IMG/VR virus record: IMGVR_UViG_3300017963_000145
Location: 1 to 39,060 of that record
Length of the DNA: 39,060 nucleotides
DNA from: a virus
Direction: 5' to 3' (one strand)
The notes beneath the pieces are model-generated. The model saw only the letters and a program-made list of their open reading frames with translations, was not told where the DNA came from and made no database searches. Below, one piece after another: positions 10,348-39,060 of the stretch. Each line of letters opens with the position of its first letter. Positions within the stretch are counted from its first letter, which is position 1. Made by a program: the position numbers and the translations under genes.

Positions 10348-10462
10348 AAACCCTCTTTATTTGAGCTCTAAGCGCCGATCTTTTTGCAGATGGCAAATTA
10401 TACGTTTTAACCCCGCAAAGGCTCTGGTGGTGCTTTAAAACACGTTTAACTCCCTTTATCAT
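10337..10462 (-). CDS. Tiny basic protein (41 aa), coupled on both sides
   Basis: ATG at 10462 overlaps the stop codon of the upstream Hc1-like gene (ATGA), and its TGA lies 11 bases inside the next gene. The 41-residue product is strongly basic ('MIKGVKRVLKHHQSLCGVKT', 'AKRSALRAQIKRVYGN'). A nucleic-acid-binding role is plausible. It fills the only gap in an otherwise continuously coding operon, which argues that it is real despite its size. Confidence 0.6.
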   Translation of the reverse strand: MIKGVKRVLKHHQSLCGVKTYNLPSAKRSALRAQIKRVYGN

Positions 10463-10656
10463 TTCAGACCTGCAAGGCAACTTAGCTTCCTGAAGTCCTT
10501 TAGTAGCTTCTGAAGCTTGATTGATGTTTTTCTTATTCTTCTAGCTGCTGCTGTAACCCTTTCAGCCTTTCCTAGATCTTTGCATATCTCTTGGATGGCT
10601 TCATGTATCTCATCAACTGTTATTGCTAACAACCATTCTGTACTATCTTTTTCCAT
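10459..10656 (-). CDS. Hc1-like histone H1 homologue (65 aa)
   Basis: The segment 'DLGKAERVTAAARRIRKTSI' followed by 'KLQKLLKDFRKLS' matches the N-terminal domain pattern of the chlamydial histone-like protein Hc1 and the related bacterial 'histone H1' family (GNKAAAQRVRTxTIKLEK-KxYRK type). That family binds and condenses DNA. The lysine-rich repeat tail of true Hc1 is absent, so this is the dimerisation/N-terminal domain only. I place the start at ATG 10656 because GAGGG lies just before it. The ATG at 10668 has no ribosome binding site. In an operon with the replication initiator, it may organise phage or host DNA. Confidence 0.6.
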   Translation of the reverse strand: MEKDSTEWLLAITVDEIHEAIQEICKDLGKAERVTAAARRIRKTSIKLQKLLKDFRKLSCLAGLK

Positions 10657-10683
10657 AAAAACCCTCATTAAAGTGTAGTGTAA

Positions 10684-11718
10684 CTAACTTTCTTTTAAAA
10701 TAGAACATATTTTTTTGTACAATCCTTCTGTTATTTGGTATTTATTTTTTAACAGGTCTAGGAACTTATCTTGGGAGAGGTTGTATTTGTAATCAGAGTT
10801 TTTAGAATCAAACATCTTTTCTCCTGAGAGGATTAGTTTTCCCTTGTTTTTGAGAACTGGGCAGTTTAGGACGCTATACCATTTCTCATATTCCTCATAA
10901 GCCTCTTTGATTTTATCAAGGTTTTGGGGCGTTTTGTGTGCCAAAACGATGTGATCAGCAATATTGTCATATTTCTTTCTTAGTGAAGCTGGAGATTGGA
11001 TGTTAAATAGATTGTCCGGCTTCATAGTGAAGTCTATTGCTTCTATTATTTTACTTTTTGGAATCTTGTCAATTCTAATCATTAGGTCAAAGTCTCTATC
11101 CCAAGTTTTCATCTTTGGAGGTTTTCTGTCAGACCTTCTTTCTTTTAGTTTTTTTAATAAATATTTAGAAAGAAAGTGAGCATCTTCAGATGCGAGAGGA
11201 GCGGGAGCGACGGCCTTCTTTGGAATATCCTTAGCTTTCTCAACTTTCTTTGGTTTACTTTCTTTATTCTTAATATGGTTCTTCTTAATAGGTTCTTCTT
11301 TATGTGCACCACATGCATGACCCTCATGCACGACATGCACTACCCCTCGTGCACCACATGCACTACTAAACTTTTCTTTAAAGTACTCAAAATTTCTAGG
11401 CCATAAATCGGTAATTTGAATTAAATTTGTATCTGGCGATCCATCTTCTTTTTCTCTTTTTTTTATTTTAATGAGCCCTTTTTTTTCTAATTCCTTTTTA
11501 CAGATTATAACTTTTCGTAAGCTAATTTTCGTTTTTTCTGACAATAATTTATTTGAAGCAAAACAAGCGCCTCTGTCACCAGCTATTCTTTTTAAATGAA
11601 TATAAAATGCTAGTTCATATGGATCTAATTCTGTTTCTAAAATAATATTAGGAATTTCAGTTCTGTATTTGTGCAAAGAACTGTGATCTTGAAGCTGAAA
11701 GTTTTGATATTCTGACAT
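10684..11718 (-). CDS. Replication initiator, lambda-O-like, with internal origin (344 aa)
   Basis: Residues 25-115 form a winged-helix domain of the phage replisome-organiser/O type ('ELDPYELAFYIHLKRIAGDR', 'ASNKLLSEKTKISLRKVIIC', 'ELEKKGLIKI'). Residues 116-180 are a low-complexity basic linker. Its codons contain three iteron-like DNA repeats (11304-11365) in different reading frames. The C-terminal domain ('RDFDLMIRIDKIPKSKIIEA', 'SPASLRKKYDNIADHIV') is of the kind that recruits the helicase loader or helicase. Lambda O has the same plan, with the origin inside the gene. The phage encodes no polymerase or helicase, so the host replisome is presumably recruited. Ribosome binding site: CAGGAG before ATG 11718. 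Confidence 0.75.
   Translation of the reverse strand: MSEYQNFQLQDHSSLHKYRTEIPNIILETELDPYELAFYIHLKRIAGDRGACFASNKLLSEKTKISLRKVIICKKELEKKGLIKIKKREKEDGSPDTNLIQITDLWPRNFEYFKEKFSSACGARGVVHVVHEGHACGAHKEEPIKKNHIKNKESKPKKVEKAKDIPKKAVAPAPLASEDAHFLSKYLLKKLKERRSDRKPPKMKTWDRDFDLMIRIDKIPKSKIIEAIDFTMKPDNLFNIQSPASLRKKYDNIADHIVLAHKTPQNLDKIKEAYEEYEKWYSVLNCPVLKNKGKLILSGEKMFDSKNSDYKYNLSQDKFLDLLKNKYQITEGLYKKICSILKES
11304..11365 (-). repeat. Three iterons inside the initiator gene (putative origin)
   Basis: Three 17-base units on the plus strand begin at 11304, 11326 and 11349: GTGCACCACATGCATGA, ATGCACGACATGCACTA and GTGCACCACATGCACTA. Units 2 and 3 are each preceded by CCCTC. Each core is a dyad (TGCA...TGCA). 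The spacing of 22 and 23 bases, about two helical turns, is not a multiple of three, so the repeat is conserved as DNA and not as protein. An AT-rich stretch follows in the direction of transcription, as at the lambda origin. Confidence 0.75.
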
Positions 11719-12198: not shown

Positions 12199-13074
12199 CT
12201 ATTGTTTATTGCTGAACGTCACACATGGTATGCCTTCCTTGCGATATTTGGCAAGTATATCTTCAGTGATGTCATAGTCATTACAAAACTTAACCCAGTC
12301 AATAGTTCCTTTTCTAGAGAAACGTTTCATTTTAATATTGGCATGAGTGAAAAAGCATTTCTTCCCGCCGTGTAGGCTCTTTAGCTTTGTCTCTATATCT
12401 TTTCTTTCCTGAACAATAGATTGCTCGTTAGCCTTTAATTCTGCCCACTTTTCGGCCAATCCATTAGACATAGCATCAGAGATATATTCCTCATCTCGGT
12501 CAGTTGTGTCGGGAGGGGTGTCTTTTACAACGTACTCCCAGAATTCCTTTGCCTTTTTTACCATTGATAGTTGATATTTAACATCAGGATAAACAGGTAT
12601 CATCGTGTGTTCCGAATCGTCAACATATACAAAGTAATCACATCTATCCGCCTTTGTTACCCACAGTTGCCATTGCATTTGGTCATGATAATAGTCAGGA
12701 ATCTTTAGCTCTAAGGCATTTTCATACAGTCTAAAGGATGTAGGGCATTTTATTTCACAGATAACACCAGCGTTTTCAGTAATGCCATCCAGAGAAGCCA
12801 TTGCTACTTCCCATTCTTTAGAGTACATGACTCTTGGGATTAAAGGAATTCCGTGTAATTCAATATATTTTGCTAATGCCACTGGTTCCATGTCAATACC
12901 ACGTTGCATAGCTGGAGTTGTTTTATCTGGACCCTTTTTACCTGTCTTTTCAAGCCATAAGGTGTAAGGGCTTTTCCAGGGGTTTGTTCCATTAATTATA
13001 GAAATGTCGGAACCACCGATGTGGCTCCTTCTGTTTTCAAACCATTCGGGTGATCTCTGGTCAGTTTTATTCAT
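12199..13074 (-). CDS. YqaJ-family recombination exonuclease (291 aa)
   Basis: This is a lambda-exonuclease-like nuclease of the YqaJ family that resects dsDNA ends for single-strand annealing. 'QRSPEWFENRRSHIGGSDIS' at residues 5-24 is the family's start signature ('R...IGGSD'). The PD-(D/E)xK site is visible: E63 in 'RGIDMEPVA', D96 in 'MASLDGI', and E107-I-K109 in 'VICEIKCP'. The C-terminal 90 residues are helical. It overlaps the ERF annealing gene by eight bases and so is translationally coupled to it, the usual exonuclease/annealing-protein pair. It probably serves recombination-dependent replication or end repair in the host cytoplasm. Confidence 0.92.
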   Translation of the reverse strand: MNKTDQRSPEWFENRRSHIGGSDISIINGTNPWKSPYTLWLEKTGKKGPDKTTPAMQRGIDMEPVALAKYIELHGIPLIPRVMYSKEWEVAMASLDGITENAGVICEIKCPTSFRLYENALELKIPDYYHDQMQWQLWVTKADRCDYFVYVDDSEHTMIPVYPDVKYQLSMVKKAKEFWEYVVKDTPPDTTDRDEEYISDAMSNGLAEKWAELKANEQSIVQERKDIETKLKSLHGGKKCFFTHANIKMKRFSRKGTIDWVKFCNDYDITEDILAKYRKEGIPCVTFSNKQ

Positions 13075-13702
13075 GTTCCATCGCCTCTATTTCTTGTTGT
13101 ATTTTTAATTTTAAAGGTCCCAATTTGTCTCTAGTTATATCATATGGAGTTTTAGCTTGAGCGTACTCCAATATTTCTTCTTGCCTATCTTTATCTAACT
13201 TCTTAAGCAGCCTGGCTACTTCTTTAACTTCAGAAGCAATTAGTTCTTTTTTAGGTCTTCTATGCATTGCCGCTTCTCCATCATCATCATCCCCATTAGC
13301 AGTTACTCCAACAATCGAAGCCCAATTATATCTTCTAAGATAAGTTAGGTAACTACCGATGCTTTGTATATCATTTTTAGGCGGGGTTATTGGCATTTTA
13401 GATTCAATCCACTGTCCTGAAGCATGGCATAAGCGGGTGAATAGATACATTTGATTGCTTCCATTACTCAAAACTCTTTGTATAACAGAAAGTCCATTCT
13501 TAGCCAAGTAAGGTCTGCTAGCTTTTACTATTTGAGATAAATCCGCATAATTACTCTTAAAAAAAGGGTTTTTACTAGTAGTTTTAGCTATTTCTATTTC
13601 CCCCTGAGCCTTAGCCAACGCAGTGAATAGTTCTCCTAATTCAGCACTTTCACTTTGTGGTTTTTGTTGTATTACTTTTACTGCTTCTTCTTTGTTTTCC
13701 AT
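13067..13702 (-). CDS. erf: ERF-family single-strand annealing protein (211 aa)
   Basis: The protein shows the ERF signature. 'NPFFKSNYADLSQIVKASRP' lies at residues 45-64 and 'NGLSVIQ' soon after. 'LCHASGQWIESKMPI', 'IQSIGSYLTYLRRYNWASIV' and the acidic 'ANGDDDDGEA' complete it. ERF proteins form rings on ssDNA and anneal complementary strands, as in phage P22 recombination. The length of 211 residues is typical. The C-terminal part is a helical charged tail ('VKEVARLLKKLDKDRQEEIL'). Its partner exonuclease overlaps its 3' end. An AGGAGAA site precedes ATG 13702. Confidence 0.92.
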   Translation of the reverse strand: MENKEEAVKVIQQKPQSESAELGELFTALAKAQGEIEIAKTTSKNPFFKSNYADLSQIVKASRPYLAKNGLSVIQRVLSNGSNQMYLFTRLCHASGQWIESKMPITPPKNDIQSIGSYLTYLRRYNWASIVGVTANGDDDDGEAAMHRRPKKELIASEVKEVARLLKKLDKDRQEEILEYAQAKTPYDITRDKLGPLKLKIQQEIEAMEHE

Positions 13703-15739: not shown

Positions 15740-16267
15740 ATGATATGTCCAGACTGTAAAGCCGAAGTATGTTTTGAATGCGGTTATTGCGATTGTAAGA
15801 AAACACCCGCTGTAATAGTAGATATAGATGGAACTCTTGCTAATATTGATCACAGGAGGCATCTAGTAGAAAAAGATAAAAAAGAGTGGGAAAAATTTAA
15901 ACAAGAAATAATTAATGACAGACCCAATCAATGGTGTAGAATATTATGCTGTTGCATAAGTGCGCCTCCAATCGCCACATATGACCCAATTCATATATTA
16001 TTTGTTACAGGTAGAGAAAAAAAATACAAACCGATTACTGAACTTCAAATCAAAGATTGGATTGATCCTGATTATTACTGTTTATTCACTAGAAAAGACA
16101 ATGACTTTAGACAAGACACTGAAATAAAAAGAGAAATTTATCAAGAAAAGATAAAGGATAGGTATAACATTATATTTGCCATAGACGACAATGCAGAAAT
16201 TGTTGAGTTATGGAGGTCACTTGGCATAGCCACGCTAGATTGCGCAGGATATAAAAGAAATAGTTAA
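15740..16267 (+). CDS. HAD-family polynucleotide 3'-phosphatase-like protein (175 aa)
   Basis: Residues 3-19 form a Cys-rich zinc knuckle ('CPDCKAEVCFECGYCDC'). Then comes a HAD phosphatase with motif I 'VDIDGTLANIDHRRH' (D28 and D30), motif II 'ILFVTGRE', and motif IV 'FAIDDNAEIVELWRSLGI'. The order and the 'DIDGTLAN-DHRR' wording match the 3'-phosphatase domain of T4 polynucleotide kinase. The kinase half is absent, so it would clean up 3' phosphates on nicked DNA or RNA without the 5'-kinase step. The N-terminal zinc module is unusual and may bind nucleic acid. Ribosome binding site: AAGGAG. Confidence 0.8.
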   Translation: MICPDCKAEVCFECGYCDCKKTPAVIVDIDGTLANIDHRRHLVEKDKKEWEKFKQEIINDRPNQWCRILCCCISAPPIATYDPIHILFVTGREKKYKPITELQIKDWIDPDYYCLFTRKDNDFRQDTEIKREIYQEKIKDRYNIIFAIDDNAEIVELWRSLGIATLDCAGYKRNS

Positions 16268-17093: not shown

Positions 17094-19310
17094 ATGCTAG
17101 ATCTCAGTCCTAAACAACAAATATCTCTTAATGAATCTAATGCACGTATAAATATATGGGAAGGAGCTGTTCGTTCAGGCAAATCATATTCTAGTCTAAT
17201 AAGATGGTTAGAATATATTCAAGAAGCTCCGCCTGGAAACTTAGTTATGGTTGGAAGAACAGCTACAACCATAAAGCATAACCTTGTAGATGAGATATGC
17301 AATCTTTTAGGAACAGACGCTAGGTATTATTCAGGAAAGAATGAACTGAACCTTTGGGGAAAGAGAATATATTTAGTAGGCGCTTCAGATGCGAGGAGTG
17401 AACAAAAGATACGGGGAGCTACTTTCTCTGGTGCTTACGTAGATGAGGCTACTCTTATACCAGAAGCTTTCTGGACTATGCTACTATCTAGGCTTTCAGT
17501 TCCCAATTCTAAGATATTCACCACAACAAACCCTGATTCACCTTTTCATTGGCTCAAAAAGAACTACATAGACAGGATAGATGAACTAGACATGAAGAGA
17601 TGGAAGTTTTATTTAGAAGACAACCCCTCTCTTTCTGAAGAATTTAAAATCTCCCTAAAACAAGAATACCGTGGATTATGGTATAGAAGGTATATAGACG
17701 GCGAATGGTGTCTCGCTGAAGGAACTATCTATGACTTCTTTGATGAGGCTATTCATTGCATAGACTTTCCTCCAGGACAAGGAAAAGAATATTATGTTGG
17801 GATAGACTATGGTACAACAAATCCGTGTGCTTTTGTTTTGTTAGGTTACAACCCAATGAATTATCCAAATATGTGGGTAGAAAAAGAGTATTACTATGAT
17901 AGCGCTAAGCACAGTAGGCAGAAAACAGATACAGAATACGCACAAGATCTAGCGAAGTTTATAGAAGGAATTCCAATATCTGGGATATATGTTGATCCAG
18001 CCGCTGCTTCTTTTAAATTAGAATGCAGTAGGCAAAGCATCCGTAACGTTTTTGATGCTAATAATGATGTGTTGGATGGAATAAGATTTGTAGCAGGTTT
18101 ATTTACTAACGGAACTCTTAAGATATGCAAAAGTTGTCGTAATTTAATAAGAGAGATGGGAGCCTATGTTTGGGATCCTAAAAGCAAAGATTTAGGGGTA
18201 GATAAACCATTAAAAGCTAATGATCATTGTTTTAGTGAAGGAACGCCAATTGCTACACATTTTGGCCAAAGACCAATCGAGCGAGTGATGATAGGAGATA
18301 TGGTTTTAACACCAATAGGTTATAAATATGTGATAGAAACTTTTGAAAATGAATCTGAAGTATATGAGTATGAGGTTTTAGGTCAAAAAATAAAATGTAC
18401 TCCAAATCACAAATTTTTCACAATTAATGGTTGGAAAGAAGCCCGAAGCTTGATACAATCAGATATGTTTCTAATCAAAACAACGGGTGAAACATGTCTG
18501 AGGAAATCATCATATTTAACGGAATCAAGTACAGACGGTACTTATCCTCCAAGAATCTTTCCGATAGAAGATATTTCAGAGCACATAAAGCAGATTGCCT
18601 TAAAGGATGCGGCTATCTCCATCGAGATGTATGGAAATTCTATCATGGAGAAATACCCACAGGATGTCATATTCATCACATCGATGGAAATACCGCGAAC
18701 AATGACATTAGCAACCTCAAGCATATATCAGCTAGCGAGCACTTATCCAAACATATGGCAAATCGTTCAAAAGAACAAATTGAAGCTGCAAGAGTTCATT
18801 GCGAAGAAATTAGACCGCTTACAAAAAAATGGCACAGATCAGAAGAAGGAAGAGAATGGCATAAAGAACACGGAATTAAAGCATATAAAAAAAGAAAACC
18901 AAAGAAATATAAATGTAAGCAATGCAATAAAGAATTCAAATCAACAAAATACACAAACACAAAATTTTGTTCAAATAACTGTAAATCACAATGGCGTAGA
19001 GACAATAAAATTGATGATGAGACAAGAATATGTCCGATATGTAGTAAAGAATATAGAATTAATAAATACTCAAAAGCAAAAACATGTTCAAAGAGTTGCG
19101 GAATCATTCATAGGAAAACAAAAAGTTTATAATCTGCACGTTGAAGATATGAATGTATATTATGCTAATGACATTTTAGTTTTAAACTGCAACGATAGTT
19201 TACGCTATTGCCTCCACACAGTATTTGGGCAAACATTAGGAAATCAAGATAGAATGACAAAAGAAAAGCTTGACTCTTTAAAGCGAAAAGTTCAATCTGA
19301 ATGGTATTAG
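17094..19310 (+). CDS. Terminase large subunit interrupted by an intein (738 aa; 418 aa spliced)
   Basis: The precursor has 738 residues. The ATPase domain shows Walker A 'EGAVRSGKS' (residues 23-31) and Walker B 'GAYVDEAT' (around 113-120). The nuclease domain has D in 'VGIDYGTTNP' (around 237) and D in 'YVDPAAAS' (around 300). The third acidic motif, canonically 'NDH..D.LRY', is split by an intein between 'KANDH' and 'CNDSLRY'. Splicing restores it and gives 418 residues, a normal TerL length. The enzyme translocates DNA into the prohead and cuts it at headful or site-specific ends. The start directly follows the previous stop. Without splicing the nuclease centre would be broken, so production of active terminase depends on the intein. 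Confidence 0.92.
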   Translation: MLDLSPKQQISLNESNARINIWEGAVRSGKSYSSLIRWLEYIQEAPPGNLVMVGRTATTIKHNLVDEICNLLGTDARYYSGKNELNLWGKRIYLVGASDARSEQKIRGATFSGAYVDEATLIPEAFWTMLLSRLSVPNSKIFTTTNPDSPFHWLKKNYIDRIDELDMKRWKFYLEDNPSLSEEFKISLKQEYRGLWYRRYIDGEWCLAEGTIYDFFDEAIHCIDFPPGQGKEYYVGIDYGTTNPCAFVLLGYNPMNYPNMWVEKEYYYDSAKHSRQKTDTEYAQDLAKFIEGIPISGIYVDPAAASFKLECSRQSIRNVFDANNDVLDGIRFVAGLFTNGTLKICKSCRNLIREMGAYVWDPKSKDLGVDKPLKANDHCFSEGTPIATHFGQRPIERVMIGDMVLTPIGYKYVIETFENESEVYEYEVLGQKIKCTPNHKFFTINGWKEARSLIQSDMFLIKTTGETCLRKSSYLTESSTDGTYPPRIFPIEDISEHIKQIALKDAAISIEMYGNSIMEKYPQDVIFITSMEIPRTMTLATSSIYQLASTYPNIWQIVQKNKLKLQEFIAKKLDRLQKNGTDQKKEENGIKNTELKHIKKENQRNINVSNAIKNSNQQNTQTQNFVQITVNHNGVETIKLMMRQEYVRYVVKNIELINTQKQKHVQRVAESFIGKQKVYNLHVEDMNVYYANDILVLNCNDSLRYCLHTVFGQTLGNQDRMTKEKLDSLKRKVQSEWY
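18228..19187 (+). mobile_element. Intein in the TerL nuclease motif (320 aa)
   Basis: The intein runs from Cys1 ('CFSEGTPIATHFGQRPIERV', block A with 'IGDMVLTP') through block B ('CTPNHKFFTINGWKEA', with the TxxH pattern) to blocks F/G ('VYNLHVEDMNVYYANDILVL' then Asn). Cys is the +1 residue. The penultimate residue is Leu where most inteins have His, and block F has Asn/Val where His is common. The splice may thus depend on other residues or be slow. Between blocks B and F, some 210 residues in this frame are low-complexity Asn/Gln/Lys sequence. They are the shadow of an HNH gene encoded in another frame. No endonuclease domain exists in the intein's own frame. Confidence 0.88.
18494..19132 (+). 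CDS. HNH homing endonuclease nested out of frame in the intein (212 aa)
   Basis: This complete gene lies wholly inside the intein but in a different reading frame (ATG 18494, TAA 19130). A TGA sits two codons upstream in its frame, so it must initiate on its own. GGGTGA a few bases before the ATG is a weak ribosome binding site. The product has the HNH core 'CHIHHIDGNTANNDISNLKH' (residues 58-77), preceded by 'CGYLHRDVWKFYHGEIP'. Two zinc-finger-like Cys modules follow: 'YKCKQCNKEFKS'...'FCSNNCKSQW' and 'RICPICSKEYRI'...'TCSKSCGIIH'. This is a complete free-standing HNH design. It presumably cuts intein-less TerL genes and drives homing of the intein. Confidence 0.85.
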   Translation: MSEEIIIFNGIKYRRYLSSKNLSDRRYFRAHKADCLKGCGYLHRDVWKFYHGEIPTGCHIHHIDGNTANNDISNLKHISASEHLSKHMANRSKEQIEAARVHCEEIRPLTKKWHRSEEGREWHKEHGIKAYKKRKPKKYKCKQCNKEFKSTKYTNTKFCSNNCKSQWRRDNKIDDETRICPICSKEYRINKYSKAKTCSKSCGIIHRKTKSL

Positions 19311-37443: not shown

Positions 37444-39060
37444 ATGCCTAGTAATAATAGAGATGGATATGGATTTGGATTAGGTGGCCCTACTCCAAGA
37501 CTATCTCCAACGCCTGTTATCGCAAGACGTGTGCCTGCAACGACAGATACAGACTATGCTTTAGGAACTACGTGGATTAACGAAGTTACCAATCAAGCCT
37601 GGGTGATGACTGGAGCGTCCGGGGGAGCAGCGACGTGGTCAATTTCAAGTCCGGGGGCCTCAGACGTTGACACCATCAACGGCCTGTCCCCAGTAGCCGG
37701 TAATATCATCATAGACGGCGGTACAAACGTCACAGACGTAAACGCAGGTAATACCGTAACCTTAAACCTAGATGATGCCATAACGCTGGCAACAAGCGTA
37801 ACATCACCAATATATACTTCAGCAGCGGCGATGGATATAAACGCTCCAGCGGGAAGTAATATCACAATCCAACTTGGAGATGCAGCAGGGGCTAATATAC
37901 TAGAGATAGAAGATTCAGCTTCAGCAGCAGTAGCAACAATTGATTCTAATGGTGTAGCAACATTTGTTGGAATGGATGGAGTATTAGGTGGAGTAACACC
38001 AGCAGCCATTACAGGAACAACAATTACAGCAAATACCTCTGTAACAGCTCCAGTATACACAGCTAATGCAGCAGATGCATTAGTTCAAGCAGGTGGAGTA
38101 AACGATGTTGTTTTAAGATTAGGCGATGCCGCAGGAGCGACTTTCTTTAGAGTTCAAGACAGTGCTTCTGGAGATCTTTATACTATTGACTCTAGTGGTG
38201 CACATAGCACATTTGCTGGATTAACAGTATCTGGAGCTGCAATCTCTCTTAATGATAACTCAAACTTTAATACAACAATAAATACAGGGACATCAACAGG
38301 AACCGTTTCTGTTGGAAGTGCTAATGCAGGAGCTATAACAATAGATTCGGGCGCAGGTGTTTCAATAGACGGTGCTACTGCCTCTAACTTCACAGTTACA
38401 GGAGCAGCGCAGGATCTAACATTAGGAGCTACTGGTGGTTCTATCAATGTTGTAGCAACAGAAGCAGATGCACAAGCTATATTAATAGATGCATCTAACG
38501 CGGCAGGTGGTATTGATGTTGATTGTGGTACAGGAGGCTTCGATCTTCTAACTACAGGTGGAGGATTCTCTATAGATGGAGAAGCAGCATCAAATATTAC
38601 AGTAACAAGCGCTGGGCTAGATTTAAGCCTTCAAGGTGTTGGTTGTGCAGTAAATATTACATCTACTGAAGCTCAAAATGATGCTATACATATCAATGCA
38701 TCAGCAGCTAATGGTGGAGTTCAAATCCACGCAGGAACAGGTGGAATCTTGATAGGAGATGAAGCAGATACTGCAGGCATCACAATTGGTAATATAGCTC
38801 CTACACAAAATAGAACTATAGTTATCGGTTCTGGTACTGTCGTAACAGCAGCCGTAACTGATGATATAAGCATTGGTGATGGTGGTGCTACAACTAATGT
38901 TAACTCAATAAAGCATGTTGATATTAACAATGGTGGGGTAACACTTGGTGAAGTAAATACTTATATTGCTGGAGGTGCTGTTACTTCAGGTACTCATCTT
39001 ACAGAGATATCTTGCGGAAACGTAGCAGCTGGTACAGCAACATTAAATTTATCTGATGGA
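37444..39060 (+). CDS. Tail spike/fibre protein, N-terminal part (continues at base 1)
   Basis: The gene starts at ATG 37444 with AAGGAG upstream and has no stop before the window end. It continues in the same frame from base 1 to 1233 on the circular molecule, giving 908 residues. Residues 1-60 ('RVPATTDTDYALGTTWINEV', 'TNQAWVMTG') resemble the attachment domain of the 7189 fibre. From residue 75 the sequence is a long shaft of Gly/Ala/Thr/Ser/Asn repeats ('VDTINGLSPVAGNIIIDGGT', 'INTGTSTGTVSVGSANAG'). Minus-strand open frames across it are shadows of this biased sequence. Confidence 0.85.
   Translation, partial: MPSNNRDGYGFGLGGPTPRLSPTPVIARRVPATTDTDYALGTTWINEVTNQAWVMTGASGGAATWSISSPGASDVDTINGLSPVAGNIIIDGGTNVTDVNAGNTVTLNLDDAITLATSVTSPIYTSAAAMDINAPAGSNITIQLGDAAGANILEIEDSASAAVATIDSNGVATFVGMDGVLGGVTPAAITGTTITANTSVTAPVYTANAADALVQAGGVNDVVLRLGDAAGATFFRVQDSASGDLYTIDSSGAHSTFAGLTVSGAAISLNDNSNFNTTINTGTSTGTVSVGSANAGAITIDSGAGVSIDGATASNFTVTGAAQDLTLGATGGSINVVATEADAQAILIDASNAAGGIDVDCGTGGFDLLTTGGGFSIDGEAASNITVTSAGLDLSLQGVGCAVNITSTEAQNDAIHINASAANGGVQIHAGTGGILIGDEADTAGITIGNIAPTQNRTIVIGSGTVVTAAVTDDISIGDGGATTNVNSIKHVDINNGGVTLGEVNTYIAGGAVTSGTHLTEISCGNVAAGTATLNLSDG
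38938..39060. repeat. Terminal overlap, copy 2 (circular contig)
   Basis: Identical to bases 1-123, as described for copy 1. It should be counted once when the circle is closed. Confidence 0.95.

Follow-up and report, generated by a model that had tools for sequence, protein, structure and literature searches.

A candidate lambda-type replication origin inside an HTH_36 phage initiator gene and a possible code linking initiators to their half-sites

A short array of dyads in the viral DNA analysed here (IMG/VR record IMGVR_UViG_3300017963_000145, 39,060 nt, hereafter the window) is, judged from sequence and comparison, very probably the part of a bipartite theta-replication origin to which the initiator binds (11304-11363), located in the phage's own initiator gene. 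In addition, it appears fairly likely that O-like initiators share a recognition code, with the recognition-helix residues at columns 51 and 55 of the initiator HMM setting which bases occupy positions 4 and 5 of the half-site, and that an AT-rich repeat of 11-17 nt, which stands beside the array though not always in the same frame, is conserved as the other component of the bipartite origin. The features concerned are listed in Table 1.

Table 1. Coordinates of the initiator gene and of the proposed origin elements in the window
Feature	Position	Strand	Basis or description
Initiator gene P0001, 344 aa	10684..11718	-	winged-helix HTH (approximately residues 29-105), then a disordered linker and a helical C-terminal part
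Winged-helix domain codons, residues 29-105	11404..11634	-	HTH_36 match, pLDDT, PDB matches
Recognition helix codons, residues 67-79	11482..11520	-	AlphaFold helix and HMM column mapping
Iteron nearest the HTH codons	11349..11363		GTGCA-N5-TGCAC, arms paired 10/10
Middle iteron	11326..11340		arms paired 9/10
Iteron nearest the AT-rich tract	11304..11318		arms paired 9/10
AT-rich tract, 14-nt direct repeats, proposed unwinding/loading element	11267..11303	-	coding strand AGAAGAACCTATTA-AGAAGAACCATATTA

The dyad array is real and is not codon-driven. Each copy is a 15-base dyad with 5-bp arms and a 5-bp spacer, and the copies start at 11304, 11326 and 11349 on the plus strand, that is, with spacings of 22 and 23 nt. 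The sequence-only reading had described three 17-base dyad repeats with this spacing in low-complexity linker codons; number, spacing and location were borne out, whereas the length was not. The dyads fall in codons 118-138 of the minus-strand initiator ORF, a disordered linker in the AlphaFold model, and encode the peptides SACGARG, VVHVVHEG and HACGAH, which differ because neither 22 nor 23 is a multiple of three (the first and third copies, being 45 nt apart, share a frame). When the linker was recoded synonymously 20,000 times, three dyads were never obtained, two were obtained 10 times, one 849 times and none 19,141 times. A scan of the window in 388 tiles of 300 nt for any tandem 5-N5-5 half-site detected three or more copies in three overlapping tiles, all at the array, which also had the top TRF score (91) in the whole window.

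These results bear on the idea that the repeat is a protein-level feature, a low-complexity VVHVVHEG/ACGAH linker with no function as DNA. The linker is indeed of low complexity, and some matches to the dyad pattern proved to be repeats at the peptide level (L004 and L015, with MHDMQG units at 21-nt spacing, which were rejected as initiators). However, the idea is already contradicted in the window, as had been argued earlier from the spacing, by the shift of frame and the different peptides of the copies as well as by the recoding null, and it is also at odds with the mixed spacing remainders in the three half-site classes described below (modulo 3, remainders 0/1/2 in HTH-positive loci: 96/60/64 for GTGCA, 23/27/43 for GTGAC and 13/69/52 for GTGTC) and with the covariation of half-site and recognition helix. 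Its probability is thus close to nil. The linker peptide is probably tolerant, and therefore the DNA would be free to be conserved for its own sake.

The AT-rich tract that had been noticed beside the dyads corresponds to a 14-nt repeat at 11267-11300 that adjoins them and has the second-highest TRF score in the window (61). An AT-rich repeat of 11-17 nt adjoins the dyad array in about half of the homologous initiator genes. On the C-terminal-coding side, at most 60 nt from the array, direct repeats with a period of 11-17 were present in 39 of 71 non-redundant loci, as compared with none of 71 on the other, upstream side, 1 of 68 further downstream and a mean of 2.5 (maximum 6) in 50 shuffled sets. 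GC content was 41% in the repeat-bearing flank, 48% upstream of the array and 53% distally. GAACC was present in 26 of the 71 loci versus 7.2 in shuffles. It should be noted that, of 80 occurrences of a GAACC-like motif (GAAYC/GAACT), 53 stood in codon frame 0, and protein constraint may therefore account for the AT-rich repeats in part, though not entirely.

The same repeats help to weigh a second alternative, in which initiator binding at the dyads serves chiefly to control replication, through titration, handcuffing or incompatibility, and the active origin lies at a separate site. Iterons are able to titrate initiators or to pair them, a role that passages of PMC3349717 propose for lambda. 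We consider this alternative highly improbable here, because the array is repeatedly accompanied by adjacent AT-rich direct repeats and neither TRF nor the tandem half-site scan revealed a second dyad array in the window. The GC skew of the closed circle, suggested earlier as a check on the origin, was uninformative: it showed no clear origin and followed gene orientation, from which its detrended extremes (9579 and 21831) were inseparable.

On the basis of profile matches, P0001 is an ordinary HTH_36/O-like initiator, and the earlier suggestion of a new initiator type is not supported. It matched HTH_36 (7.4e-10 at residues 29-83) and DnaD_N (3.4e-4) in Pfam, passing the curated cut-off of HTH_36 (PF13730; 38.9 bits versus 25), and in PHROGs a DnaD-like helicase loader (1e-18) and a replication initiation O-like family (1.8e-13). 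Neither Phage_rep_O (PF04492) nor a RepA_N profile was among its matches at E<=0.1, the resemblance to RepA_N proteins being one of fold only. In the AlphaFold model, the winged helix has a pLDDT of about 90-97 over residues 31-100, the repeat-encoding stretch is of low confidence and largely unstructured, and the C-terminus is helical with low confidence. R68 and I72 correspond to HMM columns 51 and 55, respectively, and both lie in the first turns of helix 67-79. PDB structural matches of the model cover residues 20-113. Among them, 4pql/4pt7 aligned with Z 9.4 over 87 residues (rmsd 2.4-2.6 A); we take these entries, whose titles read 'DNA binding protein' and 'initiator', to be pSK41 RepA. 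Foldseek returned no match of the model at E<=0.001, and a sequence search of solved structures with P0001 gave none either. When the HTH profile was compared with solved structures, a chromosome replication initiation protein and DnaD came out on top (2vn2, 2.8e-5; 2v79, 0.008).

The C-terminal part of P0001 resembled the DnaD-like helicase loader phrog_2514 (1.3e-13). Helicase loading is conjecture, because none of the window ORFs that were scanned, with Pfam and PHROGs among others, could be recognised as a helicase or as a separate loader. With this in mind, the following mechanism could be proposed. The N-terminal winged-helix domain would bind each GTGCA-N5-TGCAC dyad as a dimer, and since the dyads are spaced by 21-24 nt, or about two helical turns, adjacent dimers would stack on one face of the DNA. 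By analogy with lambda, the resulting nucleoprotein complex may melt the adjoining AT-rich direct repeats, to which the DnaD-like C-terminal part, or a loader, would deliver the replicative helicase.

Direct homologues of P0001 were absent from the phages and genome_contigs collections, and a single one was found in viral_contigs. The initiator of this nearest relative, an IMG/VR contig (L002 = L007), is 39% identical overall to P0001, and its gene carries three dyads at 23/22 spacing and an AT-rich tract almost identical to that of the window. In a codon alignment of the two genes, nucleotide identity was 57% in the HTH codons, 76% in the iteron codons and 90% in the AT-rich codons, and the third base was kept at 30 of 50, 12 of 12 and 13 of 15 identical residues, respectively. 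The half-sites were unchanged while the five bases of the spacer differed, and the C-terminal parts were 21% identical over the aligned part. A DnaC-like loader gene overlaps the 3' end of the initiator gene in this contig. A third example of the design (L128) has four dyads.

Because direct homologues were so few, the breadth of the arrangement was taken from the DNA pattern. Searching the array region by blastn against 50,697 phage records matched three Thermus phages only, at the annotated start of a 'replication initiation O-like' gene or shortly before it, with eight dyads in the matched region of phage Lalka8. The narrower two-dyad pattern was found in seven viral and six cellular stretches, mainly inside HTH initiator genes, the cellular ones including the unrelated lineages Paenibacillus, Longimonas and Zoogloeaceae. 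Four of its loci are clearly not initiators, namely the peptide repeats L004 and L015 mentioned above and two unrelated ORFs (L010 and L014). GTGCA-N5-TGCAC occurred twice in at least 120 viral stretches, as compared with six for the scrambled control of the same composition (GAGCT-N5-AGCTC), none of which was in an initiator. These stretches, the viral and cellular two-dyad matches and the window gave 127 loci with an ORF at the clustered motif, and the array lay inside an ORF matching the initiator HMM (E<=1e-4) in 106 of them, among the matches listed. This HMM had been built from 23 of these proteins and is not independent of the loci; 86 cluster representatives were therefore scanned with Pfam and PHROGs, of which, among the matches listed, 62 matched HTH_36, 67 matched phrog_270 ('replication initiation protein') and one matched Phage_rep_O.

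The 21 loci below the cut included four that are cut off at a contig or stored edge (L050, L114, L125 and L132), four with weak initiator HMM matches (L034, L078, L081 and L106) and the known false match L010; L035, with no ORF over its array, was left uncounted. The other 12 had no convincing initiator ORF and were rejected as initiators (L026, L037, L046, L047, L058, L066, L072, L085, L087, L088, L103 and L126). In five of these (L047, L058, L066 and L072, L087), the GTGCA dyads are spaced by 34 or 21 nt and lie in ORFs unrecognised as initiators. Elsewhere, spacings of 17 nt were added to the usual 21-24 nt (L022, L040, L060, L069, L079, L080 and L083), a distance that would place neighbouring dyads on different faces of the helix.

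A protein-similarity route was also followed, in which 25 annotated phage initiators were picked by HTH similarity for host diversity. In 17 of them, TRF detected a tandem array of 17-24 nt in or beside the gene; it found none in the other eight homologous initiators, and the arrangement is not universal. Half-sites among the 25 were GTGCA (mEp460 and Cumys), GTGAC (D77, mEp010 and Psychrobacter Y8A) and others. The earlier proposal of a lambda-type origin in an O/DnaD-like initiator gene is thus supported by the recurrence of array, position and AT-rich repeats in many phage initiators. The lambda-type layout is known and shared here; what is not supported is the view that the iteron of the window is an unrelated sequence of its own, since GTGCA is common to initiators of Thermus, Paenibacillus, Longimonas, Zoogloeaceae and enterobacterial phages.

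A third alternative is that the dyads are operators through which the HTH protein autoregulates its own transcription, with the origin elsewhere. Many winged-helix proteins act as repressors on 15-bp dyads, and the best PDB matches of the P0001 model include MarR/CRP-type regulators. However, the array lies mid-gene, far from a promoter, with the first dyad at a median of about codon 96-105 in three half-site classes. Moreover, the AT-rich direct repeats occur on one side only, the proteins match replication-initiator families and the layout is that of the lambda origin known from experiments (passages of PMC7466680). We therefore regard autoregulation as unlikely and favour an initiator-binding origin element.

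Initiators of two sister classes, with GTGAC and GTGTC half-sites, were compared with those of the GTGCA class, and residues of the recognition helix covaried with the half-site. Pattern search gave 101 stretches with GTGAC arrays, and 65 of 106 loci (these and five annotated phages) were HTH-positive. Counting initiators that were non-redundant at 60% within class, column 55 was Arg in 31 of 33 GTGAC proteins and in none of 62 GTGCA proteins (Fisher 5e-23), the next best of 95 HMM columns reaching 9e-4. It was predicted before any further scan that Arg55 reads C at position 5 and should hence be found in other C5 classes too. Three half-sites were named in this prediction, of which GTGTC is the one scanned. 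It gave 120 stretches, 100 of them HTH-positive, and Arg55 was present in 95 of the 100 (34 of 37 when non-redundant), as predicted. Arg55 was absent from 3 of 37 GTGTC and 2 of 33 GTGAC proteins. Column 51, noticed after the scan, was Arg in 31 of 33 GTGAC versus 8 of 37 GTGTC proteins (3e-10).

A rule combining columns 51 and 55 was correct for 106 of 118 proteins in a class-blind set that was non-redundant at 50%. In 60 label permutations, the lowest best-column P was 1e-4, as compared with 3e-28 observed. All of 14 greedily chosen closest cross-class pairs differed at column 55 as expected; in the closest, 81% identical outside the recognition helix, Arg and Asn went with GTGAC and GTGCA, respectively. 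Class labels were scattered on a tree that is weak (26 changes versus a shuffled mean of 27.6). As this tree was poorly resolved, with 4 of 92 inner branches starred, only three independent pairs lay on starred branches, and Arg55 was in the expected direction in 2.9 of the three on average and never in the opposite one. The lambda-type CCCTC pattern gave only five stretches. Two match the HTH profile, both with Arg55, and two more (L270 and L272) have a similar helix by eye only, so that the claim for this class is weak.

Taken together, there is strong indirect evidence from sequence that each initiator recognises, through its HTH, the dyads located within the gene encoding it. Within the shared-code reading, Arg55 would go with C5, Ser51 with T4 and Arg51 with A4 or C4, and we infer that bases 4 and 5 are contacted by the side chains of these two columns. 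Neither the shared half-site classes nor the residue-to-base rule was found in print among the open-licence PMC papers searched.

Several GTGAC arrays outside HTH-positive genes lie in other long ORFs, of a recurring MRWEDERYVRLYTRDT type and others, so GTGAC dyads may occur with an initiator family outside the HTH profile. Nine loci (L171, L198, L207, L215, L253, L258 and L260-L262) have GTGAC dyad pairs in ORFs starting about MRWEDERYVRLYTRDT, and such ORFs possibly represent a second initiator or regulator family that uses the GTGAC dyad.

The window is of the in-gene-origin kind and is a new example among HTH_36 initiators, the lambda-type layout being already known. Like the window, lambda O with ori-lambda and the Stx phages P27 and 933W have mid-gene iterons and an adjoining AT-rich tract, and the lambda/P27 iteron core, CCCTC-N5-GAGGG in a primer table of PMC7466680, has the same 5-5-5 dyad geometry. 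They differ from it in the half-site (CCCTC versus GTGCA), in Phage_rep_O, which P0001 does not match, and in iteron number (four in lambda, six in the Stx phages and three in the window, which also has no recognised P-like gene). The gp18 genes of P22 and phage L likewise contain repeats of their own, which differ in sequence. Passages of PMC8022706 report different iterons in the genes of lambda, P22 and L, and different specificities of the P22 and L gp18 proteins, and give no residue-to-base rule. The O-like initiator gp56 of Pseudomonas phage MD8 also has repeats inside its gene (passages of PMC8508860), of another sequence than those of the window. RepA_N initiators such as pSK41 RepA are described in parts of PMC5703833 as having the origin in a dispensable linker of the rep gene, a winged-helix N-terminus and a DnaD-like fold, and pPR9 Rep as having a pfam13730 (HTH_36) N-terminus. 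They belong to plasmids, not phages, and their likeness to P0001, which lacks a RepA_N match, is one of fold and layout. Finally, the DNA-binding domain of Vibrio PLE RepA covaries with its origin, and the two are swapped together as one module; unlike in the window, the PLE origin is intergenic with repeats of about 30 bp, and the passages of PMC8263062 consulted give no residue-level code.

Descriptions of in-gene origins deal with one phage at a time and present the iterons as different and unrelated. Our data suggest that very distant phages draw on a small number of recurring half-site classes and that a two-residue rule ties initiator to site. If the code is true, the origin would be predictable from the initiator sequence, and the reverse, for many uncultured phages. 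It would also explain a switch of origin specificity between relatives, such as the natural pair at 81% identity, and make lambda-O-type recognition testable with few purified domains.

Some other features of the window could be identified. An exact 123-bp terminal direct repeat (1-123 and 38938-39060) leaves 38,937 unique bases and is consistent with a complete genome or one with a circular map. On the minus strand, a YqaJ-type exonuclease adjoins an Erf-like annealing protein as a recombination pair (12199-13702), and a small ORF next to the initiator (10459-10668) matches histone H1-like Hc1 (2.2e-10). The name Hc1 is associated with Chlamydia, and this ORF is a possible hint of the host. 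The plus strand carries a PNKP-phosphatase-like domain (15740-16267), for which no kinase part is evident, and a large terminase ORF (17094-19310) that is interrupted by an intein-like domain (Intein_splicing 2.4e-11 and Hint_2 in Pfam).
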